Source: JAYKJB01 sp035284745 [NCBI: Candidatus Sericytochromatia bacterium] | Lineage (GTDB): Bacteria; Cyanobacteriota; Sericytochromatia; S15B-MN24 | Assembly: GCA_035284745.1 (NCBI GenBank) | Contig: JAYKIL010000007.1 | Coordinates: 1-25,143 of the forward strand | Direction of reading: 5' to 3' | DNA length: 25,143 nt | In this document: positions 5,432-25,143 of the stretch, piece by piece | How positions within the stretch are numbered: the first letter of the stretch is position 1 | How the letters are laid out: every line of letters starts with the position of its first letter | Program-made: the position numbers and the translations under genes | Notes under the pieces: model-generated | What the model was told of the DNA's origin: nothing | What the model saw: the letters and a program-made list of their open reading frames with translations, nothing else | Databases searched by the model: none

Positions 5432-6352
5432 GTGCGAGCCAAAAACGCGTCAGTAGCTCCCCCCATTATTTATGGGGTGGCGCTGGTATTGGTCACGTTG
5501 ATACTGACCGTTCTGTACAACATTGCGATGGTGACAGATTGGTTTCCGGACAGGTCAACACCGGCACGGGGGTGGCCCCAGATCCTCGTCATTGGGGCCG
5601 GCTGGATGATGGGTTTGGCCGTGATGACAGGGCTCATCCTCTTCATTATATCGTTGGCGCGGCAAATCAAATTGAACCAGCAGCAGCAAAACTTCATCGA
5701 CAGCGTCACTCACGAGTTAAAGAGCCCCCTGACGTCGCTGAAACTTCATCTCGAGACGATGCAACGCCGTCCCATCACACACGAACAGTTGTTTGAATTT
5801 TCAAACACAATGCTGCACGATGTCGATCGTCTCGATCGCTTGATTGACCACGTATTGGAGGCGGCTCGCTCCGAGGCAGGCCGCCGTATCCCGATGAAGG
5901 CCCCCCTCGAAGTGCGGGCCCAGATTGCCGCCATCATCAAAACATTGGAAAGACGTCATCATCTCACTCATAACACCATTAGATTGGAGGGCCCCGCCGT
6001 CACGATAAAAACGGATGCCACAGCTTTTGACGTGGTACTCACCAATCTATTAGAGAATGCCATCAAATATTCTCAAGGCCCCGTAGAGGTGGCGGTTCGA
6101 CTCACGCCGCTGGTCTCGGGGGGCATATCCATTGCTGTGTCCGATCAAGGGGTCGGAATTCCGAAGAAACAATTACGCCGAATCTTTAAACGCTTTCATC
6201 GGGTCGGAAACGAATTGACACGCATCCGACAAGGGACGGGCCTGGGCCTTTCGATCGTCAAGGACACCGTCAAAGCGTTGAACGGCAGCATTGTCGCGAG
6301 CAGTCCTGGTGAGAACCAGGGCAGTGTTTTTACATTAACTTTGCCGGGTTAG
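5432..6352 (+). CDS. membrane sensor histidine kinase
   Basis: A 306-residue inner-membrane kinase that autophosphorylates on His and passes the phosphate to the adjacent regulator. Two membrane segments (about residues 12-34 and 48-75) are joined by only about 14 residues, so there is no extracytoplasmic sensor domain and no HAMP domain. The dimerisation helix carries HELKSPL with phospho-acceptor His94. The ATPase domain shows the N box NLLENAIKYS (about 205-214), the G1 box DQGVGIP (238-244), the F box FKRFH, and the G2 box GTGLGLSIVK (268-277). The GTG start at 5432 follows a GGAG nine bases upstream; an overlapping ATG at 5430 is out of frame. Only four bases separate it from the regulator gene. 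The short loop suggests intramembrane sensing or a partner protein as sensor. Confidence 0.95.
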   Translation: MRAKNASVAPPIIYGVALVLVTLILTVLYNIAMVTDWFPDRSTPARGWPQILVIGAGWMMGLAVMTGLILFIISLARQIKLNQQQQNFIDSVTHELKSPLTSLKLHLETMQRRPITHEQLFEFSNTMLHDVDRLDRLIDHVLEAARSEAGRRIPMKAPLEVRAQIAAIIKTLERRHHLTHNTIRLEGPAVTIKTDATAFDVVLTNLLENAIKYSQGPVEVAVRLTPLVSGGISIAVSDQGVGIPKKQLRRIFKRFHRVGNELTRIRQGTGLGLSIVKDTVKALNGSIVASSPGENQGSVFTLTLPG

Positions 6353-6356
6353 CGTC

Positions 6357-7088
6357 ATGGCGAGATTATTAATGGTCGAAGATGAAGACCATATCGCGCG
6401 AGGTCTGTTGTTCAATTTGGAGTTGGACGGACACACCGTTGTTTGGCTGCGCGATGGCCAAGAAGCATACGAGCGCCTGGTTGTAGCGCGCGAAGGCTTT
6501 GACCTGATCATCTTGGATCTTATGCTTCCCGGCATCTCGGGGATTGACCTCTGCCGCGCCTTGCGAACGTGTGGAAATTACACGCCCGTCTTGATGCTGA
6601 CGGCAAAAAACCACGAAAAAGATAAAGTTCAAGGGTTACAGGTCGGGGCAGATGACTATGTAACCAAGCCGTTCAACCTAGAAGAACTTCTGGCGCGGGT
6701 TGAGGGCCTTTTACGTCGTCAGGCGTGGGGTTCGCAACACCCGCCCCCTTCCAGCGACAGTGGGGTGCCAAACCAAGGCACCGCATCACTGAGTTTCGGT
6801 AATGTGCAGATTGACTTCGACCGCCACGAAGTGCGCGTGGGAGGGCAGGAAGTTCATGTGACCCCTCTTGAAATCGCCCTGATGAAAACATTGGCTGCCC
6901 ACGAAGGGCGGGTCCTCTCGCGCGAGGATCTCCTCCGGGAGGTCTGGGGTACCGAGGCCCCGATGGCCACGCGCACGGTAGACAATTTTATCCTGCGTCT
7001 GCGAAAACTTTTCGAACCCGACCCCACTCACCCGCGTCACATCCGCTCTGTCAGGGGGCGCGGCTACAAATTTTCGCGCCTGGGATAA
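6357..7088 (+). CDS. OmpR/PhoB-family response regulator
   Basis: A 243-residue DNA-binding transcription regulator. The receiver domain (about 1-120) has the acidic pair Glu8/Asp9, phospho-acceptor Asp54 in LILDLMLPG (switch residues Thr82 and Lys104 in TKPF), and GADDYV. A linker of about 20 residues rich in Pro, Ser and Gly leads to a winged-helix output domain (about 140-243) with the typical LTPLEIALM-like start, REDLLREVWG and the C-terminal RSVRGRGYKF wing. The partner kinase lies four bases upstream, so they form one two-component system. The target genes are unknown; the neighbouring small genes are natural candidates. Confidence 0.96.
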   Translation: MARLLMVEDEDHIARGLLFNLELDGHTVVWLRDGQEAYERLVVAREGFDLIILDLMLPGISGIDLCRALRTCGNYTPVLMLTAKNHEKDKVQGLQVGADDYVTKPFNLEELLARVEGLLRRQAWGSQHPPPSSDSGVPNQGTASLSFGNVQIDFDRHEVRVGGQEVHVTPLEIALMKTLAAHEGRVLSREDLLREVWGTEAPMATRTVDNFILRLRKLFEPDPTHPRHIRSVRGRGYKFSRLG

Positions 7089-9325: not shown

Positions 9326-10555
9326 ATGCCGTCTGTCAGATCATTCCCGCCCCTTCCGCCCGCTTCCCCTGCGCCACCTGCTCGGCGCAACCCCGCGATC
9401 GTCACCAAGTCGTCGCATGAATTCACTATCAGCGCTCAATCATCCGCCACCAGTCATCCATTTTTGGAGGCGCTCCGATCATTCCGAAAAGGGGTTCAAT
9501 GGTTGATATATGGCCCCGTGGTCGAGCGATTCACGACCCGAAGGGTAGAAGACGATCCCGACACCCGTTATGCGCCCATTCAAAAGGTGCGTGAAGCGGC
9601 GGGCCGAATTGAGGCAAATCGAGAGACAGAAACCATCGCGCTTGAAAAATTGGGCCCGCGGGCGGCGGCGTACCATCGCCTCGTAAAAACGCTCGAAGGA
9701 GACACCATGGCGCGAGACGCGCTTCAGACGATGCTGCTTGATGGCCGTTTGACCGACACCCAAGACCTGAAAAACCAAGGCGATGCCTTGAGTCATTTGA
9801 CCCGAATGAACGAGGGGTTGCTGGCATCCGGCCTCGATCGCAAGGAACTTCTGAGCCACGTGGTCGAAGAAGCGGAAAACCCCGTCAAAATTGCTCAAGA
9901 AGAGCGCGGAACTTGTGTTGCGACCACCGTCACTGTCCTGCTCGCCACCAAAAACCCCGCAGAATACCTCAGGCTTGTGGCCGACCTGGCCAGACCTGCT
10001 GGCACCACAACAACTTTAAGCGGCGCAAACCTCACGCGGAAATATAATTGGGCGAGCGACGGGGATGGTCATCGCACGCCCTCCGTTCGATTATTACAGC
10101 CCGCTCTTATGGAACTCGGGAATGGTTTTTGGCGTTACAGCAACGATCGCGACATACACACTTTGCCCGTGGGCGTGCCAGAAAATCCGCAGACAGGAGG
10201 CGTCCACAACTTATTGAATTGGCTGGGCGCCAGGCAAATTCTGCCGGGCGGCTTGACCGCTGGCGGCGCCAACAAGCTACTCGAAAAACTGATGGGTCAA
10301 GATTTCCAGATCGTAAACGTCTCCCGCTTCAATCGTGACCGTGCCTGGAGTCGTATTGAGGCCGCAGTGTCCGCGGGGCAAAGTGTACCCGCAGGTTTAA
10401 TCTGGAATGAAGGAGGCCACGAGGTTCTGATTGAGGGAATAAGGGATGACCGAGTCTACTACACCAATCCGTGGGGACAAGATGAATCGATGGCAGTGGG
10501 CGAATTCAAACAGAACCTGAGCAGCGCAAACCTCCTCCGTGCTGCGAGCGATTAA
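9326..10555 (+). CDS. putative papain-fold cysteine peptidase with long N-terminal region
   Basis: 409 residues; the family was not recognised by name. The C-terminal half holds a papain-like constellation: Gln191 and Cys197 in QEERGTCVATT, six apart as Gln19/Cys25 in papain, and His365 in GGHEVLIEG with Asn381 in TNPWG, sixteen apart as His159/Asn175. The stretch HEVLIEG...VYYTNPWG resembles C39-like and bacterial papain-fold peptidases. Residues 1-190 begin Pro/Ser-rich, have no clear signal peptide, and then are charged and helical, possibly a propeptide or targeting domain. The ATG at 9326 has GGAG (9314-9317) eight bases upstream; an ATG at 9321 is out of frame and too close. It could be a secreted effector, a maturation protease or a transglutaminase-like enzyme. 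Its last four bases overlap the end of oleD on the other strand. Confidence 0.72.
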   Translation: MPSVRSFPPLPPASPAPPARRNPAIVTKSSHEFTISAQSSATSHPFLEALRSFRKGVQWLIYGPVVERFTTRRVEDDPDTRYAPIQKVREAAGRIEANRETETIALEKLGPRAAAYHRLVKTLEGDTMARDALQTMLLDGRLTDTQDLKNQGDALSHLTRMNEGLLASGLDRKELLSHVVEEAENPVKIAQEERGTCVATTVTVLLATKNPAEYLRLVADLARPAGTTTTLSGANLTRKYNWASDGDGHRTPSVRLLQPALMELGNGFWRYSNDRDIHTLPVGVPENPQTGGVHNLLNWLGARQILPGGLTAGGANKLLEKLMGQDFQIVNVSRFNRDRAWSRIEAAVSAGQSVPAGLIWNEGGHEVLIEGIRDDRVYYTNPWGQDESMAVGEFKQNLSSANLLRAASD

Positions 10556-11556
10556 ATTTGAAACTGAGCTGAATCTCGACACCAAGCCGCAAGACGCTTC
10601 AACCCCTCGTGGGTACTCACGGCAGGTACATATCCCAATTCCCTTTTCGCAGCCGTGAGATCAAAATAGTGAGTGGTCGCCAGTTCACGCGCCACCCAAC
10701 GGGTCATTCGCGGCTCAGCATCAAGGCTGAAGGAGTTATGAATCGCCTCCAGAAAGGTTCCGCCAGCGATCGCAAGCCAAGCGGGAACCGAACCCACCAC
10801 CGGAGGGAGACCGGCCGCCCCAAGCAAATCATCCAACAAGTCCCACGCAGCCGTGGGTTCATCATTGGCAATAAAATACGCGCGTCCCGCGCACGCAGCA
10901 CCCGGCATCAAGGACTCTGCCGCGGCCAGATGGGCCATCGCGGCGTTATCAATATAAGTCGCATCAACGAGATTGCGACCATCCCCAATTCTTTTCAATC
11001 GGCCCGCCCGCCGCGCAGCAACAAGACGGGGCAGAAAATGAGGGTCACGAGGCCCCCAAACCAAATGAGGGCGAAGAGCCACCGTCGCCAGATCGGGACC
11101 ATTCGCAGCCAACACTGCGCGCTCAGCCTCGGCCTTGGTGGCCGGATAATTGGCTTCATAGTGCGCTGGATAGGGCACCCTTTCATCCACGCCGGCCATA
11201 TCACGGCCATTGAATACCACGCTGGGAGAGCTGGTATACACCAATTTGGGCACCCCCGCCCGTAAACACGCAGAAATGACGCTGCGGCTGCCCAGAACAT
11301 TGGCGCGGTAATAATCATCCCAGGATCCCCAGGATCCGGCTTTGGCCGCCACATGAAAAACGCAGTCTTGCCCGGCAGTGGCTGACAGAGCGGCCGTTTC
11401 ATCCGCGACATCCCCTCTCAGGACACGCACCCCGAGCCGCTCAAGTTCGGGGTAGACTCCGCGTTGAAGGGTGGTCACGAGATACCCGCGAGCCACCAGC
11501 AACTCGGTCAATGCAAGGCCTAAGAAACCACCTGCGCCGGTCACCAGGGCCTTCAC
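10552..11556 (-). CDS. oleD: 2-alkyl-3-oxoalkanoate reductase OleD
   Basis: A 334-residue NAD(P)H-dependent short-chain dehydrogenase of the 3-beta-hydroxysteroid dehydrogenase/epimerase type. In the Ole pathway it reduces the 2-alkyl-3-oxo acid made by OleA to the 2-alkyl-3-hydroxy acid. The Rossmann motif TGAGGFLG is at residues 6-13, and the catalytic Ser (YTSS, about 109-110), Tyr137 and Lys141 (YPATK) are in place. An upstream ATG at 11577 is in frame, but GTG 11556 gives the normal MKALVTG start and forms a GTGA overlap with the oleC stop. A GGAGG lies 10 bases before it. It is the last gene of the operon. The assignment as OleD rather than a generic epimerase rests on its place after oleA, oleB and oleC. 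Confidence 0.93.
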   Translation of the reverse strand: MKALVTGAGGFLGLALTELLVARGYLVTTLQRGVYPELERLGVRVLRGDVADETAALSATAGQDCVFHVAAKAGSWGSWDDYYRANVLGSRSVISACLRAGVPKLVYTSSPSVVFNGRDMAGVDERVPYPAHYEANYPATKAEAERAVLAANGPDLATVALRPHLVWGPRDPHFLPRLVAARRAGRLKRIGDGRNLVDATYIDNAAMAHLAAAESLMPGAACAGRAYFIANDEPTAAWDLLDDLLGAAGLPPVVGSVPAWLAIAGGTFLEAIHNSFSLDAEPRMTRWVARELATTHYFDLTAAKRELGYVPAVSTHEGLKRLAAWCRDSAQFQI

Positions 11557-13178
11557 GTGATCCGAGCCTCCGCCCATTGGGCCAACTTCTCGCGAAAGAT
11601 TTTGGCATTGTGGCGAATATCCACGGGAAATGCCGGATGAAATAGCAGGTGACGAATCCCCACGGTATGTTCGAATTCAGTGGCCAAAGCGAGCAACTCT
11701 GACGCTAAATCTGCGGTCTTGCGCTGCCCGGGTTCCAACTCAACACACACCACGGGCATCTGAAAACCTGCGTGATGCGGATCAGGAACCCCGACCAAAG
11801 CCGTCCGGCGCACCGTCGGATGCTGATTAAAGATGGTCTCGCAAGGAATCGTGTACATGTCGCCACGAAACGTCCGCACGCGATGCGACTTGCGGCCTAA
11901 AAACCACAGCCGGCCCGCTTCGTCGAATCGCCCCAGATCCCCCATACGGTGCCACACCGTCCCATCTGGTGCCGTTATTTTCCCCCGTGCGTCGTGATCC
12001 GGTCGCTGGCAGTAACGAGGACTGACCACGGGACCCCGAACAACCAATTCGCCCACAACCCCGACAGGAAGGCGCAGGGCGTCCATCCACTCAGCGATGG
12101 GCTCATCATTGACTGGAATGACGGCGACCTCTACTCCTCCGACGGGCCTCCCCACACAGGTGCCCTCACCCTTGGCCCAGGCCGCCGCGGTCTCCGTCAA
12201 AATCTCTTGGGCGGTAATATGCGCAACGGGCAACGCCTCGGTGGCCCCATAGGGGGTATAAACCGTGGCCTCGGGCGGAAGAAGATGACAAAATCGCTTG
12301 AGAACACCGGGCGATACGGGAGCACCCGCGCTGAAGACCCGTTTCATCCCCGCCAACTTGACCCCGCGGGAAACGCCCCAACGAGACACGCGATCGAGCA
12401 ACGCCGGCGAGGCAAACATTTGGGTCACGCCATAGCGTTGAATCGGCTCCAAAATGGCCCGCGGATCGACCCGCCCCGGCCGGGTGAAATCCATGCGGGG
12501 GATGATCGCGGTGACCCCCAAGGCCGCATCAAAAAGAGCGAAAAGAGGAAAAGTGGGCAGATCAATCTGGCCAGGACCCACGCCGAACTCTTTCGCGAGG
12601 ATGTCGACCTGCGCACAAAAAGTCCGGTGCAGATAAACGGCCCCTTTGGGGACTCCAGTGCTACCGCTCGTAAACAGAATCGCGGCCACATCCTCAGAGG
12701 AAATTTTGGGCCCCACAAAAGGCTCACCCGGCCTGGACGTGCCCCTCAGCAAACGGGCGCCCGGAAAGTATCCTTGAATTGAAACCAGCGTGCGCCAAGC
12801 CCCCTTCCGCCACGCGCCCCAAACGCGAGCCACATGCGCCAAAGGAATTCCGATGAACACATCCGGTGCCGCCTCCTCCAAGCACAAGCCAACGTGATGC
12901 AGGCCCATCCCTGGATCGATCATCACGGGGATGGCTCCCATCTTCAGCAGAGCAAAAGTCAGTGCAAAAAACTCAACACCGGGGCGTACCATTAAAGCAA
13001 CCCGTGTGCCGCGCGCGACCCCAAGCCCCGTCAAACGATGAGCGTACGCATCACACCGGCGCAACAACTCGTCAAAACGGCACACTTTCGAGCCGTGAAT
13101 CACCGCCGGTGTTGTTGGCTGGATGGCCGCATAGTATGCCAGTCGAGAGGCAATATTTTCCCCAGCGACCACCGTCAA
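11553..13178 (-). CDS. oleC: beta-lactone synthetase OleC (AMP-ligase-like)
   Basis: 541 residues of the acyl-CoA synthetase/AMP-ligase superfamily. OleC uses ATP to turn the 2-alkyl-3-hydroxy acid into a beta-lactone. The phosphate-binding loop FTSGSTGVPKG (169-179) is followed by YTPYGATEALP (about 307-317), RMGDLGRFDE, GRKSHRV and the catalytic Lys in HNAKIFREKL near the C-terminus. The open frame reaches back to 13550, but that part is antisense-like noise inside oleB. The TTG at 13178 has a perfect AGGAGG (13185-13190) six bases upstream and overlaps the oleB stop as TTGA. Two codons later a GTG could be used but is further from the ribosome site. OleB and OleC are separate here, unlike the OleBC fusion of some Actinobacteria. 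Confidence 0.94.
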   Translation of the reverse strand: MTVVAGENIASRLAYYAAIQPTTPAVIHGSKVCRFDELLRRCDAYAHRLTGLGVARGTRVALMVRPGVEFFALTFALLKMGAIPVMIDPGMGLHHVGLCLEEAAPDVFIGIPLAHVARVWGAWRKGAWRTLVSIQGYFPGARLLRGTSRPGEPFVGPKISSEDVAAILFTSGSTGVPKGAVYLHRTFCAQVDILAKEFGVGPGQIDLPTFPLFALFDAALGVTAIIPRMDFTRPGRVDPRAILEPIQRYGVTQMFASPALLDRVSRWGVSRGVKLAGMKRVFSAGAPVSPGVLKRFCHLLPPEATVYTPYGATEALPVAHITAQEILTETAAAWAKGEGTCVGRPVGGVEVAVIPVNDEPIAEWMDALRLPVGVVGELVVRGPVVSPRYCQRPDHDARGKITAPDGTVWHRMGDLGRFDEAGRLWFLGRKSHRVRTFRGDMYTIPCETIFNQHPTVRRTALVGVPDPHHAGFQMPVVCVELEPGQRKTADLASELLALATEFEHTVGIRHLLFHPAFPVDIRHNAKIFREKLAQWAEARIT

Positions 13179-14089
13179 GACGTTCCTCCTGCGGTGCTTT
13201 GCCGCAAAAACGTCACAATTTTTGGAATCAGATCGTCTCCCACATCTTCCAGCACATAGTGCCCCGCGCTCTCGTATGCGTGGGTCTCCGCACGAGGAAA
13301 ACGAGATTGCCATCCGGCCAAGAAGTGTCGATCGAAAACGAAGTCGCGCAATCCCCAGCCCAAAAACACAGGAACGTCCGAGAAGTTCGGCAGCGATTCC
13401 TCCACCATTTGAAGCAGGTCCCAAGCCGCATCCTCCGATCGCAGGGGGATGTCCTCCACAAATCGCAAAGTGGCGATGCGATGAGCCCACGTATCGTAGG
13501 GCGCGAGATAAGCCGCACGCACACGCGGAGCCAATGGGCGCACCGTACACACCCTGCTCGCGATCGATGCAAATGCGTTCAATCCCTGTACCAACGGGGC
13601 GCCCAAGGGGGTATCACGAACCACCTTGAGGGCCCACGGGAGCGGCTTGGCGGGAGGAAGGCCAAACGCAGAGGTATTTAAAGCGACGATCCGCGCGACC
13701 CTCTCAGGGTGACGGGCTGCCCAGGCCATTCCAATCATTCCCCCCCAATCGTGTAAAACCAGAGAAACGGGGCCATTCACCTGCAACGCGTCAAGCAAGG
13801 CTTCTAAATCGCACACACGACTTTCTAGGGTGTAGCGATACATGTCATCCGTCGGCTTGTCCGACAAGCCCATGCCCATATGATCGGGCACAATGCAGCG
13901 GCCGTGTAAGCGCCATTGCTGAACCAGGTCACGGAAAAGAAACGACCAAGACGGGTTGCCGTGCAACATAACCACCGGAACTTCCGATGATTCCCCTTCA
14001 TCGAGGTAGTGCAAGCGAAGGCCCCCACGCTCGAAAAAATGATGTTCAAACGGATACAGATCGTGGAAGGAAGCGATGTCGAAGGCCAC
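13175..14089 (-). CDS. oleB: beta-lactone decarboxylase OleB (alpha/beta hydrolase)
   Basis: 304 residues, haloalkane-dehalogenase-like alpha/beta hydrolase. OleB removes CO2 from the beta-lactone to leave a cis internal olefin. The oxyanion region is HGNPSWSF (His43), the nucleophile elbow HDWGG has Asp114 instead of Ser as in dehalogenases and OleB, and the catalytic His is His277 in SAGHYVLED. A strand-6 acid lies near LGWGLRDFVFD. The GTG at 14089 sits one base after the oleA stop, with GGGAG seven bases upstream inside oleA. Taken alone it could be a haloalkane dehalogenase; the flanking oleA, oleC and oleD make OleB much more likely. Confidence 0.92.
   Translation of the reverse strand: MAFDIASFHDLYPFEHHFFERGGLRLHYLDEGESSEVPVVMLHGNPSWSFLFRDLVQQWRLHGRCIVPDHMGMGLSDKPTDDMYRYTLESRVCDLEALLDALQVNGPVSLVLHDWGGMIGMAWAARHPERVARIVALNTSAFGLPPAKPLPWALKVVRDTPLGAPLVQGLNAFASIASRVCTVRPLAPRVRAAYLAPYDTWAHRIATLRFVEDIPLRSEDAAWDLLQMVEESLPNFSDVPVFLGWGLRDFVFDRHFLAGWQSRFPRAETHAYESAGHYVLEDVGDDLIPKIVTFLRQSTAGGTS
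13185..13190 (-). promoter_or_regulatory. Shine-Dalgarno that fixes the oleC TTG start
   Basis: A perfect AGGAGG on the minus strand inside the last codons of oleB, six bases before TTG 13178. It is the reason for choosing this rare start codon over the much longer upstream frame and over the later GTG at 13172. Confidence 0.75.
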
Positions 14090-14090
14090 G

Positions 14091-15128
14091 CTAGTGCTCC
14101 CAACCCAGCATCAAACAATTCAACCCACTGCCGATCCCCAACCAAGCCGTCCGCAAGCCGGGGCGGAAAAGACCTTGTTCCTCCGCGAGCGCTGCGGTCA
14201 GGGGTACCGCGACACTGCCTGTGTTGCCCAATTGATCATAGGTCACTGGGTCTATCTCCGAAGGCACGCCAATCGCCTCCAGAATGGCCTGACGGTTCGA
14301 CTGACCCACTTGATGGCTAATAATCAAATCTGGCTTTTGCCAGGATAGTTCCTCCAGTAACGCCTGCCAAGTTCGCTGCCCCATCGGAACGCCCTCTCTC
14401 ATAATGGGTACGGCATCAGTCTCCATCACCATCGCCTGCCGCGCGGGGTTTCGCCTGTCCGGTCCCCAGCGGCACAACGCGTGATGCCGGGGTTCTGCTC
14501 GCACCACTCCTCCCGCCAGACGGGCCAGGGGCTCGCGCCCCACGGTTCCATCCGTTAGAACAATCGCAGATGCGGCGGATCCGCCCGTCAGCGTGGCCAC
14601 CGCCTTGGTGAAGTGAGCCATCGAGCGTTCCAAAAGCATTTCTGCAATCATCGCTTCGTTGATCTCTCTTGCAGACTCACACCCCACCACAACACCCGCC
14701 TGGATATGGCCCAGTTCGATGAGGTTCGCCACGTGAATCACGCCTGACAAGAGGCCAAGGCACGCATTTCCGATATCCAAAACTTCTGCGGCACCAGAAA
14801 CACCCAGAATATGTGCGACCTCACAAGCCGTCGCAGGTTCGAAATCATCGCGGCAGACACTGCCGTACACCACGGCACCCAATTCGTCAGAAGCGACACC
14901 AGCCCGTCCCAACGCCTTTTGGGCCGCTCGCGCCGCCATCGGAGCCAAGCGCTGCCCCGGTTTCCACCACCGCCGGGTACGAATCCCTGTCAGGTAAGCC
15001 AATTGCCCCGGTGCAATACGCAAGTGTTCGTACAACGGGGCGAGACGCGACTCAAGGACAGCCGAATCGACCACCTCAGAAGGCAATTCATAGCCCAACG
15101 CCCCCAGATGCACCCGCGCATAATGCAT
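14091..15128 (-). CDS. oleA: thiolase-like acyl condensing enzyme OleA
   Basis: 345 residues, related to FabH. OleA joins two fatty acyl thioesters by a non-decarboxylative Claisen condensation to a 2-alkyl-3-oxoacyl product, so it determines chain identity. Catalytic Cys123 is in DIGNACLG, with His272 in ISHQVGQ and Asn302 in GNTGS. Glu97 lies 26 residues before the Cys, the spacing I recall for the essential Glu117/Cys143 of Xanthomonas OleA. A TTG one codon earlier extends the frame, but ATG 15128 is better: GGAGG (15136-15140) lies seven bases upstream, and its A is the last base of the pfaC-like stop (TGATG). This direct coupling to a PUFA-type synthase gene suggests that its acyl substrates are polyunsaturated. 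Confidence 0.94.
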   Translation of the reverse strand: MHYARVHLGALGYELPSEVVDSAVLESRLAPLYEHLRIAPGQLAYLTGIRTRRWWKPGQRLAPMAARAAQKALGRAGVASDELGAVVYGSVCRDDFEPATACEVAHILGVSGAAEVLDIGNACLGLLSGVIHVANLIELGHIQAGVVVGCESAREINEAMIAEMLLERSMAHFTKAVATLTGGSAASAIVLTDGTVGREPLARLAGGVVRAEPRHHALCRWGPDRRNPARQAMVMETDAVPIMREGVPMGQRTWQALLEELSWQKPDLIISHQVGQSNRQAILEAIGVPSEIDPVTYDQLGNTGSVAVPLTAALAEEQGLFRPGLRTAWLGIGSGLNCLMLGWEH

Positions 15129-18100
15129 CAAACACCCTCCGAGCGCAAAGTGATCGCAAAGTCAGACATGCTGTAAATGGGTCGCCCATCCACCATTAAG
15201 AGTCCATCAGCAACCAAAGACCGTGCCTCGTCGTCACAATGCTTGATATGGGCTTCCACCACCACCTCTTGGCTGCTCGGGACAATTTGTCCACGATACT
15301 GCCACTCGTGCGCCGTGTTCAGTTGCAAGGCCTCAAAGCGCGCACCGGGCGTAAGAGCCCCCCAACGACGCCAAGCCTCGGCCTTCAATAAATGAACCAA
15401 GGCCTCCAATCCCAACGAACCGGGACACACGGGATCCTGATAGAAATGTGCAGAAAAATACCAATCTCGCGGGTCCACACGTTTCCTTCCACGCAGACAG
15501 CCACGCCCATAACGGCCACCATCCGTACTCCAGTGATCAATCTCCGCCAACAGACTGAGTTTGCCTCGGGGCATCGGGCCGAATTCATTCGGGTAAGGTG
15601 AACTCAACGAAGCGGGGAGTTCGAAGGGTTCAACGCCACGCAGGCCCACTTGCTGAGCCAGAGCGGCCTTGGTAAAAAACCCAAACATGGTCCAACCTGA
15701 ATAGACGGCCGTTCCATCGCACGTCACCGAAAATTCAAATTCCTGAATGATCATCCCCGCGGATTGTGAGACTTTGGTTAGCGTGGCGCGTGTTTTAAGA
15801 GTTCCCATCTCGGGAACGACCGAAGCGTTCTGTCTCGCCCGGCCTCCCAGATTACGGAACGACAAATCGACGGGGGAGGTTAAAGCAGACCCCACATAGG
15901 CCGCCAGCCAGCCACAAGGTTGCAACGCAACCTCGAGTAACACGCCAAAGGGCATCGTCGGCTGGCCCTCGTCAGAGAAATACCATGCGTCGGGCGGCAC
16001 GTCGTACTCCGCCTCACACCAAGCGCCGGCCTCGCACACCCAGGGTTTTCCACCCACCGCAACCACGCGATCTAAAAACATGTAGGGAGGACCCGGCAAT
16101 CGAGCGATGATCCGCTCCTCATCGAACACGCGGTATCGTTCACCGAAGGCATCGGATGGCTTTCCTACCGCAAAGGCCAAAATGGTCTCGGGCCCGTAGA
16201 GCGTGTTTTTCGCCTGTGGTGCCAGCGTCATAGGCGCACCCGGGGAATTTTTAGCGATTCGATTCGCCCGCGCCAGTTCCCACAAGGCATCCAGGCTCGC
16301 ACGGGTCAAACCACTGGCTTTGACGCTCATATCACTGATTAAGACAATGGGTTTATCATCCGCAAACATCAACGCGTCTGCCAAAACATAAGGGACGCCA
16401 TCCGCGTCGAACCCCAGTTCTTTGAGAGACACTTCGTAGGTCACCAAACGGGTCGTCGCCAAGACCTGCCCGCGGCATTTCAAGCGACTTTTGACCTCTG
16501 AAACGGGTTCATAGATGACACTGCCTGCCGGCCCCACCCAACCAAGTCCCAGAAGAAAGACACGCAGGGTGTGCATGCAGCACTCGTACATCAAAGTGCC
16601 AGGCATCACCTGATCATCCACAAAATGACAGGTCAAATACCAAGCATCGGGAACCACGTCGTGCTCCGCGCGGATCAAACCCATTCCCCAACGCCCACCG
16701 GAAGGGTCCACGTGGACCACCCTGTCGACAAGCCGCATTCGACCATCAGGAATTGTGGTCGCTCGGTCGAACGGCAACCCGGCGAATTGCGCCCCAAAAG
16801 CGCCCACGAGGTCGCCCTCTCTCAGGGCCGTCAGTTGGGGAGCAGCAAGGCGTCCTGCCTCGAAAGTGACCGGGGGTTTCCAGTCTGTCAGCCAACGACC
16901 TTTGGCAGGCCGTGATTCCAACGCTGAAAATACAATGCCTCGCCCCTCTGCCAGCTGTGTCTCCGAAAAGAATCCCGCGCACCCCTCCCGCATGGTCATC
17001 AGCGGGATGCCATCCACCGTCGCGTCAAAACGGAAGAAGAAAAGGGTGACGCCGCTCTGATCCAGAAAACGATCGATGGCAATGTCGTAGTGGATCGTTT
17101 GGCCCGGGGCCGGCAAGGGTCCGTGAAAAGTAACCACCGCATCCAAGAGACGGTATACCGAAAGACCGCGGGTTTTAAAGTCGATTCCAAGCCACGCCGA
17201 CAAAAACAGGTCAGCCTGACCTGCCTCAACCGCGACACAGGTTGGAATCCTATTGCTATCCAAGTACCACGCCCCGGGCAGAACATCGTGCTCAGTCACA
17301 ATGGTGCCGTGACTCAAGCTTCCTCGCTCCCCGGAAATTGACATAATGCGATCAACCAACATCAGCGGCTCATCGGGCAGGCGCACCCGGGTGGGATAAG
17401 TATCAACAGGACTAAAATAATCCCCCAACACGGGGGCAATCTCCCCGCGAGCGAAAGCCAAGCAACCTGCGCGATCCAACCAGCATGGCGGGGGCGCAAC
17501 CCCGGTCGCCACGGCCGATGGTTTCTGTGATTGATTGAGAGACTTGAGCGCCTTTTCCAGCGACTCCATTGCCAACAATCCCAATCGTTGCTCTTTGTGG
17601 TACGAATCGTATGCTGCCTGAACACCGGCGTCTGCCAGCACCACTTTGTTTTGCCGTTCGAGGACGCCCTGCCAATGGCTCGATACATCCAGCGCCTGCA
17701 ACGCTCGCCCCTCCCCGGAGGCGGCCTTGACTTGTTGGCTTTTCCCAGAAGGCCGTTTCCGCCGCGGCAATACCAGTTTGACTGCCGAAGCGGCGGGCGC
17801 GGGGCTTCCAAGCGCCTTCACCGGCAATTCCGGCACCGTCTCACGCGTTTCTCGTTGCAAGCTGACACCTCCGTGAAGCGGGACACGAACCAAAGGGCCG
17901 AGGGTACGGGGGGTCATCTGCCCCCAATCTGCGGCTTCCCCATAGAGAGGAGCTAAGTCCACAGGGATTCTTTCCGCGTGTAAATGGGCCAGGACACGCA
18001 ACAGCGAGAGCTCGGCATCGACCCCCTTTACACAGGCAGAACGGGCCATGTAACGACCAGAGCCCAGAATCGCGCGAATCATGCGCGTGCAAGAATTACG

Positions 18101-21100
18101 GGGGCCCACCTCAAGGAAGATTCGACGGCCGTCACGAAACGCCGCGCGCACGACCGCCGGAAAATCAAGCGTGTTTTTGGCCTGTCCCACTAGCGCATCA
18201 ACCGCCGACTGACGATTCAGCACATAGCGCTGTCCCCAATGGCCGCTGTAAAAGTCAACACCCTCAGGTGCCACCGTAGGCATATCGTGAAGGGCCCGAT
18301 AGGCCTCTTCGACCCCGGCAACGACCTCACAGTGCACGCTCGTCACACCCTCCAAGGTTACAAAACGGCACCCGAGCCTTTCGACCAACTGAGCCACGGC
18401 CCCCGGCTCACCCCCCACAACACACTCTCCAGGGGCATTGACGATTAAAAGATAGACGCACGAGATACCCCTCGCAGCCTCTCGAACCGCATCAGGTCCC
18501 CGGTCAACAACACCCTCTCGCCACATCGCCGGCACCCCCGCAGGCAGGCCCCAATGACGCGCTGCCGCGGCATAACGTCCACCCAACTCCACGGTGAACA
18601 ACTTACTCGCCACCATTCGCCGCGTAAGTTCATCCCGATCAGACCACGCCCGCGTAGCGACCAAGGCCGCCGTCTCACCCAGACTATAACCCAGCACTGC
18701 CCGCGGACGGATGCCAAAAAGCCCCAACGTATCGTGCATCATCGCACCATGCGCCACCTGGGCAAGTAAGGTACTGCGATGGTCATCAGACAACGCGGCC
18801 TCTGTTATCTCCTCCCAATGAGCCGGCCACTCACGTCGCCAGGGCACAAGGCGCGCGGGACGGACCTGTGTGGCCAGGGTATGGGTCGCATCTGCGTGCC
18901 GACGAGCCACCTGCGGAAACTTCAGCCACAGGTCAACGCCCATGCCCACATAATGATTCCCGCTGCCAGGAAACACGAAGGTGATTGGGGTATCCGGGCC
19001 CAAGGGGTCCGGAACATGAAAAACTTGAGCCCCGGTCGACGTGACATCACACCCCGGGGTGACATCTCCTGCGAGGGCCAGAGCAGCCTCGCGCAACCGC
19101 GCATCCAAATCCTCCGTATCCCGTGCCACAATGGCGAGACCCAATGTTCCCTGACCGCATCCACGTTCCCGCCACCACGAGCGTGCGAGGTCAGACACAG
19201 CGGCCGTGGATGACTCAGCGCGACGATGCAAAGTCAGCGCCTCAATTTGTTGCAACAGCGCGCGTTTATCTGAACCGGCCAGCGCAAAGAGTCCGTAATG
19301 GGCCGGCACCAGGGGTTTTTGATGCTCCAACACGCTCTGGCCGTCGCGCGCTGATTCGCGGCACTCGGTGGCTGCCAGGACAACGTGACCGGCACTGCCA
19401 TCAAAGCCGAGCACATTCACCCCCGCGCGCCGAACGCCCTGGCTGCGGTCAAAGAACCAGTGTTGGGCCACGCGCGGCAAATGCACAGCGCCCACCACCG
19501 GCCCCGATTTCCGCAGATCCCACTGCGGCAGAACCTCGAAATACAGACACAATGCGGCGCGAATAAGGCTGGCCGCACCCCCGGCTATTCCCGGTTGGCC
19601 GTTGGCGTGCGACGCTCGAGCGCCTGCTGTCGTCATATCAGCCCCGTGAGCCCACAGCGATGCAACCGCCTCGTGTTCCTCCCGCAAACCCCATCCATCG
19701 AGTTCCAAAATTCCGGCACCGCTGAGGGATCGCCCTGCCTCTTCCCATGCCTTTTGAGTCGCCTGAATGACAGTGGCGGTGTCGGGCGGGGCGGCAGCGG
19801 ACGCCAGGGTGCTCGTCCCTGCCGAAGCCAAACCCTCAACGACAGCATAGATCCGATCACCATCCCTCGTTGCGTCTTCGAGACGCTTTAAAACCAAGGC
19901 TCCCGCGCCCTCAGACGTCGCCACCCCATGTCCTTCTCGTTGGCGGGCAGCCAGCACCCGCGCATCGCCCGGAACATCCACCGCCCCGACCAAAACAGCA
20001 TCCAATTCGTGACGCTGTAGAGCCCGCACACCCGCTTCAAAAGCGCGATAGGCAGACATTTCCTCCGCTTGAATCGTATGTGTCGGCCCCCCAAAACGGA
20101 ACTCACGCGCCAAACGGCTCGCTACCATTCCCCCGAGCGCTCCCAGCGTCCGATCGGACGTCAATGGCGGCGTATCAGGCTCAAGGCCCAACTTCAGACG
20201 ATGCCACCGCCGATGATAATCTGTCGTCCTGGCATCCAATCCAATTCCAATGTAGGCTCCCACGCGGGCATGCCGGGTTTTGCGTTCAGAGAACACACCA
20301 CCGGCGTCCCGCAGGGCTTCATCCGCAGCCCGCAACATCAACGCCTGCTGCGGGAGCATGTCAGGCCACTCGCGCGGTGGAATTCTAAAACGGGACGCGG
20401 ACACTTCGACATCATCGGGCAGATAATTGCCGCTGAAATCTCGCTCCAAACCCGGCACCTCGCGGCCCGCTCGCGAATGGGCCCCGTATTCGAGATCCCT
20501 TCGCAACTCTCCACCGCGCAGCGTCGCCACCTGGAATTCCTTTAAATTTCTCAGCCCTCCAAAATGACACCCCATCCCAACAATCGCGACCCGCGGGGGA
20601 AGGGAAACCGAGGCCGCGGCGGGCGGAACTTCCTGCTCGGTTCGTGGCATTCTCAATGATTCGTTCTCGTCGTGGGGTGCAGTGTCTTCCGACAGGCCCG
20701 AGGAGGCCGGCTCAGAAAGGGCGATATATTCCTCGATGAGCAGGTGCGCGTTAATCCCACCGAAGCCAAATGCGCTGACGGCCGCCCGGCGCGCCCCCGC
20801 ATTTGATGAAGGCCACGGTTCCGGCGCATTCAACACCCGAAGGTTCGCCTCATCAAGGCCCCAAGCGGCGGCGGAACGCCGGTAGTTCGCAGTCGGCGGT
20901 AGCGTACGAGACCGCAAAGCGTAAAGGGTTTTTATCAAACCCGCCGCCCCTGCTGCGGTGAGCAAATGGCCGACATTCGACTTAACCGATCCGATAACAC
21001 TGGCACGAGCCCCCTCGCCTCGCAATGCCCGCAGACTCGCAACCTCCACGGCATCGCCTTTCGGAGTGCCCGTGGCGTGACATTCGAACAGATCGACCGT

Positions 21101-22015
21101 GCCGGGATCCCAGCCGGCCTGGGCGTATGCCTCCCGCATCGCTCGCAATTGCCCCTCGGAGTGGGGGGCCAGCAAACTTCCTTCTAGGTCGTTGGAAGTC
21201 CCCAGGCCCCGAATGACACCCCAAATAGGGTCACCGTCCTGCTGCGCATCAGTCAAACGCTTCAGCACGACCATCCCGGCGCCTTCTCCCACCACCAAAC
21301 CGTCGCCCTCTTCATCAAAAGGCCTTGAACAGCCAGACGAGGACAGGGCCCTCAATTGTGAAAAACCCATCTGGGTATAGAGGCTATCGGGACGACTGAC
21401 ACCGCCGGCCAACATGACATCCGCACGTCCAGCGGCCAATTCGGCACACGCCAGTTTCAGAGCATACAGGGACGAAGCACACGCGGCGTCCAAGGCATAT
21501 CCACCCAAGCCAAAACCAAAAAGGCGAGCCAGAAAACCGCCCAGAAGACCCGCCCCCCGATAGGCATAAGGCTGGACATCCCCCTGGCCATCAAGGAACG
21601 CCACCGCATCGCGGCCCGCCCCCTCATCAGGTAACACAATGTTTCCCAAAATCACCCCGGCACGCTGACGAGATTGAGCGTTGAGCAGCAGCGTGGCACA
21701 TGCCTGACGAGCCGCCTCGATCGCCAAATGATAGAGGGGATCCAGTTCGCCAAGAAGATCATTGGGAATCGGCAGGTCTCCAAAGTCCGGTGTCCAATCT
21801 TTGACGGCGCACACGCGAGAGGATGCGACGCGATCACCTACCCCCGGTGATGCATCCACGATTTCATCAGGAGGCAAAACCCATCGGCTCGTCTCGACCC
21901 GATCGGCCGCGCTGCGGGCAGCAACCACGTTCGCCCAAAGTGCCTCGGGGGTGGGCGCATCCGGGAAAATGCCACCCACGCCCACAATGGCGACTGGAAC
22001 CCACGCAGTGCTCAT
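15128..22015 (-). CDS. pfaC: PfaC-like PUFA synthase subunit, KS-CLF-AT-(hot dog)4
   Basis: 2295 residues. An active ketosynthase (1-430) has Cys179 in DAACASS, His313 in ECHATGT and His350 in SNVGHL. A chain-length-factor domain (475-885) follows with the Cys site replaced (IQAEEMS). An acyltransferase (1010-1355) has Ser1111 in GYSLGE and His1228, in the role PfaB plays elsewhere. After a helical linker come four FabA-like hot dog repeats, starting near 1550, 1757, 1975 and 2150. The second (His1797, Glu1811 in CHFVDDQVMPG) and fourth (His2190, Glu2204 in AHFYQDPVCPG) keep the dehydratase pair; the first and third have lost it. FabA-type dehydratase/isomerases set the methylene-interrupted double bonds of PUFA. 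The ATG forms an ATGA overlap with the pfaA-like stop and has no clear ribosome site of its own. Confidence 0.93.
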   Translation of the reverse strand: MSTAWVPVAIVGVGGIFPDAPTPEALWANVVAARSAADRVETSRWVLPPDEIVDASPGVGDRVASSRVCAVKDWTPDFGDLPIPNDLLGELDPLYHLAIEAARQACATLLLNAQSRQRAGVILGNIVLPDEGAGRDAVAFLDGQGDVQPYAYRGAGLLGGFLARLFGFGLGGYALDAACASSLYALKLACAELAAGRADVMLAGGVSRPDSLYTQMGFSQLRALSSSGCSRPFDEEGDGLVVGEGAGMVVLKRLTDAQQDGDPIWGVIRGLGTSNDLEGSLLAPHSEGQLRAMREAYAQAGWDPGTVDLFECHATGTPKGDAVEVASLRALRGEGARASVIGSVKSNVGHLLTAAGAAGLIKTLYALRSRTLPPTANYRRSAAAWGLDEANLRVLNAPEPWPSSNAGARRAAVSAFGFGGINAHLLIEEYIALSEPASSGLSEDTAPHDENESLRMPRTEQEVPPAAASVSLPPRVAIVGMGCHFGGLRNLKEFQVATLRGGELRRDLEYGAHSRAGREVPGLERDFSGNYLPDDVEVSASRFRIPPREWPDMLPQQALMLRAADEALRDAGGVFSERKTRHARVGAYIGIGLDARTTDYHRRWHRLKLGLEPDTPPLTSDRTLGALGGMVASRLAREFRFGGPTHTIQAEEMSAYRAFEAGVRALQRHELDAVLVGAVDVPGDARVLAARQREGHGVATSEGAGALVLKRLEDATRDGDRIYAVVEGLASAGTSTLASAAAPPDTATVIQATQKAWEEAGRSLSGAGILELDGWGLREEHEAVASLWAHGADMTTAGARASHANGQPGIAGGAASLIRAALCLYFEVLPQWDLRKSGPVVGAVHLPRVAQHWFFDRSQGVRRAGVNVLGFDGSAGHVVLAATECRESARDGQSVLEHQKPLVPAHYGLFALAGSDKRALLQQIEALTLHRRAESSTAAVSDLARSWWRERGCGQGTLGLAIVARDTEDLDARLREAALALAGDVTPGCDVTSTGAQVFHVPDPLGPDTPITFVFPGSGNHYVGMGVDLWLKFPQVARRHADATHTLATQVRPARLVPWRREWPAHWEEITEAALSDDHRSTLLAQVAHGAMMHDTLGLFGIRPRAVLGYSLGETAALVATRAWSDRDELTRRMVASKLFTVELGGRYAAAARHWGLPAGVPAMWREGVVDRGPDAVREAARGISCVYLLIVNAPGECVVGGEPGAVAQLVERLGCRFVTLEGVTSVHCEVVAGVEEAYRALHDMPTVAPEGVDFYSGHWGQRYVLNRQSAVDALVGQAKNTLDFPAVVRAAFRDGRRIFLEVGPRNSCTRMIRAILGSGRYMARSACVKGVDAELSLLRVLAHLHAERIPVDLAPLYGEAADWGQMTPRTLGPLVRVPLHGGVSLQRETRETVPELPVKALGSPAPAASAVKLVLPRRKRPSGKSQQVKAASGEGRALQALDVSSHWQGVLERQNKVVLADAGVQAAYDSYHKEQRLGLLAMESLEKALKSLNQSQKPSAVATGVAPPPCWLDRAGCLAFARGEIAPVLGDYFSPVDTYPTRVRLPDEPLMLVDRIMSISGERGSLSHGTIVTEHDVLPGAWYLDSNRIPTCVAVEAGQADLFLSAWLGIDFKTRGLSVYRLLDAVVTFHGPLPAPGQTIHYDIAIDRFLDQSGVTLFFFRFDATVDGIPLMTMREGCAGFFSETQLAEGRGIVFSALESRPAKGRWLTDWKPPVTFEAGRLAAPQLTALREGDLVGAFGAQFAGLPFDRATTIPDGRMRLVDRVVHVDPSGGRWGMGLIRAEHDVVPDAWYLTCHFVDDQVMPGTLMYECCMHTLRVFLLGLGWVGPAGSVIYEPVSEVKSRLKCRGQVLATTRLVTYEVSLKELGFDADGVPYVLADALMFADDKPIVLISDMSVKASGLTRASLDALWELARANRIAKNSPGAPMTLAPQAKNTLYGPETILAFAVGKPSDAFGERYRVFDEERIIARLPGPPYMFLDRVVAVGGKPWVCEAGAWCEAEYDVPPDAWYFSDEGQPTMPFGVLLEVALQPCGWLAAYVGSALTSPVDLSFRNLGGRARQNASVVPEMGTLKTRATLTKVSQSAGMIIQEFEFSVTCDGTAVYSGWTMFGFFTKAALAQQVGLRGVEPFELPASLSSPYPNEFGPMPRGKLSLLAEIDHWSTDGGRYGRGCLRGRKRVDPRDWYFSAHFYQDPVCPGSLGLEALVHLLKAEAWRRWGALTPGARFEALQLNTAHEWQYRGQIVPSSQEVVVEAHIKHCDDEARSLVADGLLMVDGRPIYSMSDFAITLRSEGV
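15136..15140 (-). promoter_or_regulatory. Shine-Dalgarno of oleA inside the end of the pfaC-like gene
   Basis: GGAGG on the minus strand, seven bases before ATG 15128. It lies within the final codons of the pfaC-like gene, so ribosomes finishing that gene can restart on oleA. It supports ATG 15128 over TTG 15131. Confidence 0.7.
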
Positions 22016-25000
22016 AGAATTGCTGAAGATGCCAACGTGTTGCGCTTAAAGGCCTCTACCAGCCCCGCGTTGAACGTGCATTCAGCCCCTCTAAATTCCG
22101 CCACCAATTCTCCGGCAGCATCGATAAACGCCGCGTCTGCCAACAAGGTACCCACGCGACGGGCCGTCACGTGGACCGCCACGGTGTAGGCGCTGCTGAC
22201 GAATGGTCGATACTGTCTAAAATGGGCCACACGACAAGGGAGACAAGGAGCCCCCAACGTCTCAACACTCCATAGAATCAGCAATTGAAACATGGCATCA
22301 ATGGCCAGGGGCTCGGTCAGCCACGCATCCGTCACGGGATTCTGCATCCACAATTGTGGACGCGGCGATGCCTTGACGCGCCCCAACACCCCTTCCGGCC
22401 CCAAGGCCTCCACGGCCAGCAGTGCGTGGAACTCCGGACCATGGAACAAGACGTTTCGATAGGCCTCATCCAGACCACGAAAGTAGGGCCAGGCCTCGGC
22501 CCCGCCCCGCCAACCCGTCGACCAATGCGAGTGTGGCACCGGCAAAGCCGACTCCCGGAGCAAAGCAGTGGCCTGAGCCAAGGGCCGTTCCCGACCATCA
22601 CCAAAAAGACGAATACCGACCTGGAACCCGCCCCCTTGGGGATCTGACTCCAACGGGCCCACATCGAACCGAAGACCGTAACGCTCCCCTTCGAGGACAA
22701 CCCCTTTGAGCAGTATAAACTCATCAAAACCGGCAAAGGACAATTGCGGCTGTGACGCGCGGGCCGCCGCCGCCAACCACTCGAGCATCACGGCCACCGG
22801 CAGCACCGCTTTCCCGCTCAAGACGTGGTCCGCCAAGAATGGATGAGAAGCCACAGCCAATTCACGTTCCACGATCGTTTTGAAACGAGACTCCAGATGA
22901 TGTGCAATGGATGCTGAGACCGAGTCCTCTGTCCCCCCCGCGGAATCAGAGAGCCCCGGGGCCACAACATCACCGACGGGAGGGCCTGTAACGACCACCT
23001 CCGGAACCGGATGCCGCTCACGCCCCAACTCAGCGGCGAGCCAAGCCGCCCCCGCCTCCAAGGGCACCACCCCGACCCCTTCCGACGCGAAAATCTCTTT
23101 CAGGGCGGGCGTGACCATTCCACCATCCCACGGGCCCCAGCCGACGGACACCACTCGCGTTTCTAAACGGGTGGATGCGATCCGCCGTGCAAACTTATTC
23201 AGCACCTCATTCGCCATCGCATAGTCGCTCTGACCCACTCGTCCCACACGGGCTGTGACGGACGAGAACAAAACCACCGCCCTGAGCTCTCTAGGATCGA
23301 TGGCCCGCCACAGTGCCCGCAGCCCCCCGACCTTGGTATTGAAGACCCGGTCAAACATTGCAAGCGTCTTGTCCGAGATGTATTTGTCCGCCAGCACACC
23401 TGCTCCGTGGACCAGCATCCTCACCGGTCCGTGCGAAGCAGTTAAGCGTCGAAGAGTCATCTCGACAGCCAGTTCATCCCGCACATCCACAGGCAAATAC
23501 AGCGCCTCCACGCCCAATGCCTGTAACCGACCCAATGTTTGGGTCACTTCTCTGGCGGCGGCAATTTCCTGCCAGCGCGCTTCGAGTTCTTTCGGCGCCA
23601 GCGGAACTGGGGCCTGCGCCGCCACGGCTCGTTTGACTGACGCCTCGTCTTGCGCTTTGGAGAGCCAAGCCGGCTCTGCTTCAGGAAGAGGCGTACGGCC
23701 CAAGAGAGCCACGACCGGACGATAGGCGCGAGCCAAAGCAACGGCCACCTCAGCGGTCACACCCCGTGCTCCGCCGGTCAGAACAACGAGTTCCCCTGCC
23801 TTCACAGGAGCAGCCCGCAATGGTGCAGGGCCTGCCGCCTCCAAGGCGAGGCCAAAACGGCCCTCCGGGCCAAGACCTATTTCCACAGGACCCGGCAATC
23901 CTATCTCATCCACAATGGCCAGAGCCACTTCCGCATCGTCCCAAGAGAGATGAACATCGAAGGCCTGAGCCACAACATCGGGCCATTCAAGCTGGGCCGT
24001 TTTAGCCAGTCCAGCCAGCGCCCCGGAAACCGGGTTAAAGGGCTGGCTTCCGTCTACACAGCCAAATGCACCATCCATCCGGGAAACAGTCGCGAACCAG
24101 GCCCCTTGTTGCGTGGCTTGCGCTTTCAATCGTGGGGCAGCCTGTGTGACAAGATGGAAAGCAGATCGCAGGTACTCCTCATCCGCAAACGACCAATCGG
24201 TTCCCGCACCCGAAGGACCCAAAAGAATGAGGCCCGCCAGCGACTCAGGGACTTGCCAAAGTTGATCCTTGGTCAACTCTTTGACGCTGGCAGCAATCCC
24301 GGCCGATTGCAGGCCCTCCGCCACGGTCACTGCCAACGGTGAGCCCGCAGGCCCAGCAACCCACACCTCCGCCCCATGAGGCAGCTTAGGCTTCGACAAA
24401 CGCGGGGCTTCGGGCAAGCGCACCGCGACCGGATGTTCACAGCGCAAATTTAAAGTCATCGCGGGATCGGGCGCCAGACGAACTTGGTTCCAAAGCCCGG
24501 CTCCGCGTTCATCCCGCTCAACGACCGCAGGCGCGACCAGTGCCTCGATCGGGTCAGACGACATCGCGCCAGTCGGTTCCGCGACCGGCGAGGATTCCGC
24601 AGGGGTCAGTGGCGCCACCCCATCCGCTGTCGAAGCCATCACCTCGGGATCATCACGCGACAGAAGGGGCAAGACAGACGGTGAAGAAGGTTCCGATAGG
24701 GTGACAGGCGGAAACCAGTCAGGTGTCGAAGGCTCGAGTAAGCCGGCATCACCTTTTCCCGGGCCCATAGAATCTTCGGAAAAGGAAGGTGAAGGGGAGG
24801 CGACGGCCCCACCAAAGGCGCCCACGATGTCACGCAAGGTCTGCAGGCTCCCCGCCTGCTCGGGGCCGATGGGCTGGGCACCCGGCAAACGCTCGACCAG
24901 CGCCGACAGAATTTCAACCCGCTTGATCGAGTCAATGCCCAAATCGCCCTCAAGTGCCATGTCTAATTCCAGCGTGTCCGAGGGGTAACCCGTCTTCTCG

Positions 25001-25143
25001 GAAACCACCGCCAACAGGACCGACGCCGTATCGACACCCGGCGATGAGACCACAGGCGCCGAAACCGCCGGCATCGGGGCCGGTGCGACGAGCGGAACAA
25101 CAGGCGTCACAGGCTGAGAAACCGGAGCCGGCACGGCGATTCC
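22012..25143 (-). CDS. pfaA: PfaA-like PUFA synthase subunit, C-terminal part (ACP-KR-DH), partial
   Basis: 1043 residues are in view; the frame is open to the right edge, so the N-terminus is missing. Numbering from the in-frame GTG at 25134: a Pro/Ala/Val-rich linker (1-35), an acyl carrier domain with phosphopantetheine Ser69 in LGIDSIKR, a long Pro/Ser linker (110-210), then a ketoreductase with its structural half (about 220-435) and catalytic half (445-720; TGGARG, Ser624/625, Tyr638). A PKS-type dehydratase (about 755-1035) has HPFLADH and the Asp in EPLAIDAM. In PfaA proteins this follows KS, AT and several tandem ACPs, which should lie beyond the edge. It works in the cytoplasm with the PfaC-like partner and, in known systems, a separate enoyl reductase (PfaD). 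Confidence 0.94.
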   Translation of the reverse strand, partial: GIAVPAPVSQPVTPVVPLVAPAPMPAVSAPVVSSPGVDTASVLLAVVSEKTGYPSDTLELDMALEGDLGIDSIKRVEILSALVERLPGAQPIGPEQAGSLQTLRDIVGAFGGAVASPSPSFSEDSMGPGKGDAGLLEPSTPDWFPPVTLSEPSSPSVLPLLSRDDPEVMASTADGVAPLTPAESSPVAEPTGAMSSDPIEALVAPAVVERDERGAGLWNQVRLAPDPAMTLNLRCEHPVAVRLPEAPRLSKPKLPHGAEVWVAGPAGSPLAVTVAEGLQSAGIAASVKELTKDQLWQVPESLAGLILLGPSGAGTDWSFADEEYLRSAFHLVTQAAPRLKAQATQQGAWFATVSRMDGAFGCVDGSQPFNPVSGALAGLAKTAQLEWPDVVAQAFDVHLSWDDAEVALAIVDEIGLPGPVEIGLGPEGRFGLALEAAGPAPLRAAPVKAGELVVLTGGARGVTAEVAVALARAYRPVVALLGRTPLPEAEPAWLSKAQDEASVKRAVAAQAPVPLAPKELEARWQEIAAAREVTQTLGRLQALGVEALYLPVDVRDELAVEMTLRRLTASHGPVRMLVHGAGVLADKYISDKTLAMFDRVFNTKVGGLRALWRAIDPRELRAVVLFSSVTARVGRVGQSDYAMANEVLNKFARRIASTRLETRVVSVGWGPWDGGMVTPALKEIFASEGVGVVPLEAGAAWLAAELGRERHPVPEVVVTGPPVGDVVAPGLSDSAGGTEDSVSASIAHHLESRFKTIVERELAVASHPFLADHVLSGKAVLPVAVMLEWLAAAARASQPQLSFAGFDEFILLKGVVLEGERYGLRFDVGPLESDPQGGGFQVGIRLFGDGRERPLAQATALLRESALPVPHSHWSTGWRGGAEAWPYFRGLDEAYRNVLFHGPEFHALLAVEALGPEGVLGRVKASPRPQLWMQNPVTDAWLTEPLAIDAMFQLLILWSVETLGAPCLPCRVAHFRQYRPFVSSAYTVAVHVTARRVGTLLADAAFIDAAGELVAEFRGAECTFNAGLVEAFKRNTLASSAIL

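Follow-up and report, generated by a model that had tools for sequence, protein, structure and literature searches.

The window analyzed here, a stretch of 25,143 nucleotides from Candidatus Sericytochromatia bacterium (GCA_035284745.1, contig JAYKIL010000007.1, positions 1 to 25,143), encodes a Pfa-type polyunsaturated fatty acid (PUFA) synthase directly followed by the genes of the OleABCD hydrocarbon pathway. Six genes lie on the minus strand, from 25143 down to 10552, in the order pfaA, pfaBC, oleA, oleB, oleC and oleD. They probably constitute a Type I pfa-like synthase operon (sensu Shulse and Allen) coupled to oleABCD, with a polyunsaturated hydrocarbon as its product. The contiguity of pfa and oleABCD on one strand, reported in a first-pass annotation, holds, as each of the five junctions overlaps or leaves 1 bp. 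The linkage itself, which that annotation took for a novelty, has already been described in Geobacter bemidjiensis (Yoshida et al., 2016; PMC4882568), by Shulse and Allen (2011; PMC3098273) and in Photobacterium profundum SS9 (PMC6463001). The operon adds a divergent case to the known Type I pfa-ole arrangements, and its novelty is low.

Judged by these overlapping or 1-bp junctions, the six genes are packed like a single operon. The pfaA-like gene (22012..25143), cut by the window end to its C-terminal 1043 residues, meets pfaBC (15128..22015) in an ATGA overlap. In the sequence TGATG, the ATG of oleA (14091..15128) overlaps the pfaBC stop codon, with GGAGGG upstream of oleA, and a 1-bp gap separates oleA from oleB (13175..14089). 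The TTG start of oleC (11553..13178) overlaps the oleB stop codon (TTGA), and oleC joins oleD (10552..11556) through GTGA, an overlap that becomes 25 bp if the upstream ATG of oleD is used (alternative start 11577). Purine-rich stretches precede both oleA and oleC. The start of oleC is most likely the TTG at 13178 rather than 13550: in the open reading frame (ORF) from 13550 homology begins only at residue 132, and the TTG is preceded by AGGAGG. A 665-residue OleC with a novel N-terminal domain was ruled out, the surplus residues being a frame overlap with oleB.

The first-pass annotation had the gene order right, but its pfaC-like gene is a pfaB-pfaC fusion. PfaBC (2295 residues) comprises a ketosynthase (KS), a chain-length factor (CLF), an acyltransferase (AT) of the PfaB kind and two FabA-type dehydratase regions, seen in Pfam as four FabA-type stretches. 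The presence of the AT domain rules out a plain pfaC, even though the PfaB model TIGR02816 matches residues 1009-1357 with only 59 bits, under its cut-off of 144. The best solved-structure match is 6riw_A ‘ORF10’, at 8-429 and 475-695, which we take to be a PUFA-synthase KS-CLF; the CLF was assigned from its position and the 475-695 match. The Cys and His motifs of the KS, GYSLGE of the AT and HFxxDxVxPG of both dehydratases agree with nine displayed relatives. The residues compared in these motifs, and in OleA and OleB below, are catalytic.

The visible part of PfaA contains a PP-binding domain (PF00550; one acyl carrier protein, ACP), a ketoreductase (KR; PF08659) and two dehydratase models (PF21089, PF14765) that represent a polyketide synthase-type dehydratase (DH). 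It scores 415 bits against TIGR02813 (NCBIfam cut-off 1010), a shortfall presumably due to the missing part, over half of the protein; the KS, the malonyl-type acyltransferase (MAT) and the ACP number of PfaA fall past the window end. The complete PfaA of an Elusimicrobiota relative (L103) reads KS-AT-ACP(3)-KR-DH. Neither PfaBC nor the visible part of the cut PfaA matches a Pfam thioesterase or acylglycerol-phosphate acyltransferase model.

All four ole genes show family-level homology, completing the OleABCD pathway set. OleA exceeds the cut-off of PRK09258, a model titled 3-oxoacyl-ACP synthase III (401 against 285 bits; NCBIfam), which we take to be linked to OleA and which was over its cut-off in none of 14 control genomes and in both of two pfa-ole genomes. 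It also matches the solved thiolases 3fk5, 3row (presumably Xanthomonas OleA) and others at E about 1e-42, and Cys123, Glu97, His272 and Asn302, identical in 59 of 59 aligned OleAs, align with the solved chain 3fk5. OleB is an alpha/beta hydrolase of the haloalkane-dehalogenase kind (PF00561, NF002938) and a putative beta-lactone decarboxylase, whose HDWGG and GHYV motifs align with the solved hydrolase 8ooh. OleC, a predicted AMP-binding beta-lactone synthetase, scores 667 bits against PRK09274 (NCBIfam cut-off 478), and OleD, a predicted 2-alkyl-3-oxoalkanoate reductase, matches NF042422 best; for both, the junctions agree with the assignment. Strict solved-structure searches returned no match for OleB or OleC.

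Several known systems resemble the window. In Geobacter bemidjiensis, pfaD, A, B, C, oleA, B, C, D and pfaE lie in tandem and the organism makes C31:9 (PMC4882568). As in the window, the synthase genes precede oleABCD in the same order; the Geobacter cluster includes pfaD and pfaE, whereas the window, ending inside pfaA, shows neither, and the window PfaBC is at most 49% identical over its length to Geobacterales/Desulfuromonadales rows (best L062, 48.6%). Type I is the class whose clusters fuse pfaB to pfaC; it was described from Deltaproteobacteria and one planctomycete and was suggested to feed olefin synthesis, ole genes being “often linked”; Elusimicrobium minutum was placed in a different type, R (Shulse and Allen, 2011; PMC3098273). 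Elusimicrobiota clusters examined here (e.g., L071; L103/L104) run pfaD-pfaA-pfaBC-oleA-oleB-oleC-oleD, and the window PfaBC stands beside theirs, yet on a long branch and with an OleA nearest to Geobacterales-type loci (55%). The same chemistry is expected from the Shewanella pfaABCDE and oleABCD genes, where OleA is fed by the Pfa synthase and eicosapentaenoic acid (EPA) is made too; there, pfaB and pfaC are presumably separate genes and the pfa and ole loci lie apart. By title and abstract, only that 2011 paper proved relevant among the open-access papers listed for Elusimicrobiota, most subscription journals lying outside this literature, and a search of an OleA screening paper (PMC7064751) for pfa, Geobacter or Elusimicrobiota found nothing. 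The extension of pfa-ole operons to Elusimicrobiota thus seems unreported in the open-access literature.

A genome search for pfa beside oleA, proposed in the first-pass annotation, bears out the linkage and shows it to be widespread. Exact 8-residue patterns taken from the window PfaBC picked out 146 relatives; the 80 best were used as related loci, a biased sample that comes mostly from Geobacterales/Desulfuromonadales, with Planctomycetota, Elusimicrobia, one Hydrogenedentes and one Mariprofundaceae. Of the 68 loci with at least 1.1 kb downstream, 56 carry oleA in the same orientation as pfaBC and no more than 2 kb from it, and oleA-B-C-D follow in order in 33 of the 42 whose downstream sequence reaches at least 8 kb. 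This identical order rules out misassembly or chance adjacency. Among the nine exceptions of the 42, L007 has oleA alone, L038 and L078 have oleA and oleB only, and in L048 oleA is 7.3 kb away with oleD past the stretch; L014, L046, L049, L051 and L058 have no oleA within the stretch, which extends at least 8 kb downstream. As separate observations, the PfaBC loci of Schlesneria (L046, L049, L051) show no oleA match in the next 10 kb, and about 4 kb away the opposite strand encodes an OleD homologue; the Mariprofundaceae genome of L058 has oleA and oleB together elsewhere (L086), with no adjoining pfaBC in the 4 kb seen.

Co-occurrence across whole genomes was assessed in two phyla. A strong PfaBC match (at least 646 bits) is found in 34 of 247 Elusimicrobiota genomes, the next genome among the matches listed reaching 208.6 bits in the ketosynthase region only. 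OleA (E<=1e-40) is present in exactly those 34 and in none of the 213 others. The resulting table (34/0/0/213; Fisher 1.4e-42) rejects chance co-occurrence, with the caveat that related genomes are non-independent draws. The two genes lie within 1 kb in 28 of the 34 genomes, 2.2-12.2 kb apart in five and on different contigs in one. Ten clusters drawn from these genomes, longer contigs being chosen, were opened; all ten have oleA-B-C-D in order and PfaD upstream. In one of the ten (L120, 8565-11162, minus strand; G197), oleA and oleB are separated by an 865-residue ORF for which NCBIfam gave no match at E<=1e-10.

In 246 Planctomycetota genomes, OleA occurs in 87, a PfaBC match (E<=1e-40) in 38 and both in 35; in 27 of the 35, pfaBC and OleA share a strand and are no more than 1 kb apart. 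The query here was the C-terminal 790 residues of PfaBC only, and some of the 38 genomes match at 36-41% identity and perhaps hold other synthase types. All 31 OleAs scoring at least 289 bits against the window OleA, a line set after the scores were seen, belong to genomes with a pfaBC match (area under the curve 0.94); in two of the 31 (G334, G305) that match is weaker and on another contig. The OleAs of the 52 genomes without a pfaBC match reach at most 282.5 bits. By this split, the window OleA falls in a sequence group that is found mainly together with this synthase.

These distributions bear on the idea that the linked ole genes use ordinary type II fatty acid synthase (FAS II) chains, the pfa product being unrelated and the adjacency a matter of shared inheritance. 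The 52 Planctomycetota genomes show that OleA can occur alone, and SS9 has adjacent pfa and ole operons while its hydrocarbon was undetectable (PMC6463001). We nevertheless hold this explanation to be very improbable, given the overlapping genes, the exact co-occurrence in the Elusimicrobiota sample, the pairing of window-like OleAs with pfaBC in Planctomycetota and the polyene made by Geobacter bemidjiensis (PMC4882568). Homology, gene packing and co-occurrence together lend good support to a Pfa synthase feeding OleABCD, as the first-pass annotation proposed.

The window proteins are divergent. The full-length PfaBC set held 82 rows including the window; L103, L107, L113 and L119 were removed before alignment as cross-matches to PfaA, and 78 rows were used in the motif alignment, 44 in the tree and 59 in the distance comparison. 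In the tree, built by a quick method with a midpoint root, the window groups with nine Elusimicrobiota rows (SH-aLRT 100), but its end branch of 1.39 is the longest of 44, and the tree program warns that such a placement is unsure. The highest full-length identities of PfaBC are 50% to L071 and 51% to G168, while the nearest OleA is that of Geomobilimonas luticola (L062, 55%). PfaBC and OleA distances agree closely (Mantel r 0.94, against at most 0.18 in 999 permutations). This agreement is to be read as a shared history of the two genes and not as protein contact.

Within PfaBC, the CLF is the least conserved domain of the window protein, with a mean identity of 39.8% to 14 other rows. Together with the long end branch, this could indicate that a diverged CLF directs the synthase away from 16:4 chains, giving a hydrocarbon that differs from C31:9 in length or unsaturation. 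We consider that unlikely, as in the other 14 rows, too, the CLF ranks last or next to last in conservation among the five domains, and L058 is lower still (39.1%). A further step, in which an unsampled lineage near Elusimicrobiota would have a Pfa synthase that is an obligate OleA partner, makes hydrocarbon only and, with its diverged CLF, yields a product other than C31:9, is more speculative and rather improbable.

The reaction steps, as well as the hand-over from ACPs, are modeled on the literature on homologues. Co-expression of a Pfa synthase with OleA in E. coli yielded a 31:8 ketone, and OleA was argued to take 16:4 chains off the PfaA ACPs (Allemann et al., 2019; PMC6463001). In the window, PfaA and PfaBC, with a PfaD presumably encoded just past the window end, would iteratively build a polyunsaturated acyl chain without oxygen, the growing chain being carried on the PfaA ACPs. 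OleA would draw two chains straight from these ACPs and condense them to a beta-keto acid, which OleD would reduce. OleC would then close a beta-lactone and OleB decarboxylate it to a polyunsaturated hydrocarbon. In the simplest case, two 16:4 chains would give a C31 nonaene; the exact chain length here is a guess, as is the absence of membrane PUFA.

A dual output, as in Shewanella, shares this chemistry and differs on the main product: the synthase would mainly serve a PUFA or another secondary lipid, with OleABCD diverting a shorter intermediate. One Shewanella synthase yields both EPA and C31:9 (PMC6463001), and the same possibility was raised for pfa homologues by Shulse and Allen (PMC3098273). 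Since Shewanella makes both, the first-pass claim of hydrocarbon ‘rather than membrane PUFA’ cannot be read from sequence, and SS9 too lacks detectable hydrocarbon. A dual output is possible but doubtful here, as the thioesterase and acyltransferase models named above are missing from PfaBC and the visible, cut PfaA, and as pfaBC and OleA co-occur exactly in the 247 Elusimicrobiota genomes. The latter suggests that the synthase is not retained in that phylum for a separate product. A dedicated polyene-hydrocarbon line is the likely reading of the window operon.

Several observations weigh against a coupled pfa-ole system. Twelve of the 68 loci lack oleA within 2 kb of pfaBC (L014, L017, L020, L025, L046, L048, L049, L051, L053, L054, L058 and L075); L017, L020, L025, L053, L054 and L075 have only 1.3-4.5 kb of sequence after pfaBC, and in L075 oleA is 2.2 kb away. 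OleA was found in all eight genomes searched whole, including those of L014 and L058, where it lies on another contig, so the linkage is not universal. The adjacent SS9 operons, which gave no detectable hydrocarbon, likewise mean that linkage is no proof of product. The window, which stops inside pfaA, has no PfaD match and so shows only part of the synthase; among the 50 related loci whose upstream sequence spans at least 9 kb, 45 have PfaD in it. PfaBC departs at 31 of 510 near-invariant columns, although L020 (29 of 511) and L014 (25 of 512) depart at nearly as many. OleB (156 bits against NF002938, its best haloalkane-dehalogenase model; cut-off 241), OleC (585 and 544 bits against Xanthomonas- and Shewanella-type models; cut-offs 900 and 850) and OleD (415, the NF042422 score, and 388 bits against the corresponding models; cut-offs 580 and 580) fall under curated cut-offs, which marks them as divergent members. 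Four Planctomycetota pfaBC genomes (G472, G468, G408, G259) have OleAs below 289 bits; those of the first three are partial matches, and the pfaBC match of G259 is only 41% identical. Lastly, the congruence of PfaBC and OleA distances is expected from shared ancestry as much as from partnership.

Other genes in the window were also compared. An ORF of 409 residues (9326-10555, plus strand) is convergent with oleD, their ends overlapping by 4 bp; it matched no Pfam or NCBIfam family and none of the 247 Elusimicrobiota genomes, an empty answer that by itself proves nothing. An OPT-family oligopeptide transporter (2046-3992, minus strand) matched 13 of 19 chosen genomes: nine Elusimicrobiota with 46-50% identical copies, three weaker matches and one Brocadiia at 36%. 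Five other non-Elusimicrobiota genomes and Elusimicrobiota G122 among the 19 gave no match. The window glucokinase was compared with 23 genomes and matched two, each from Elusimicrobiota (38% identity). Taken together, these neighbouring genes point in mixed directions as to the host phylum. At 5432-7088 (plus strand), a histidine kinase with only HisKA and HATPase over the Pfam cut-off is followed by a PhoB/OmpR-type regulator.

With the window and its relatives, an already known route that makes long polyene hydrocarbons without oxygen is extended to more lineages, including 34 of 247 Elusimicrobiota genomes. A genomic rule emerges in the Elusimicrobiota sample, in which OleA never occurs without this synthase. 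The role of polyene hydrocarbons thereby becomes open to comparative tests, with the gene order as a handle for finding more producers.

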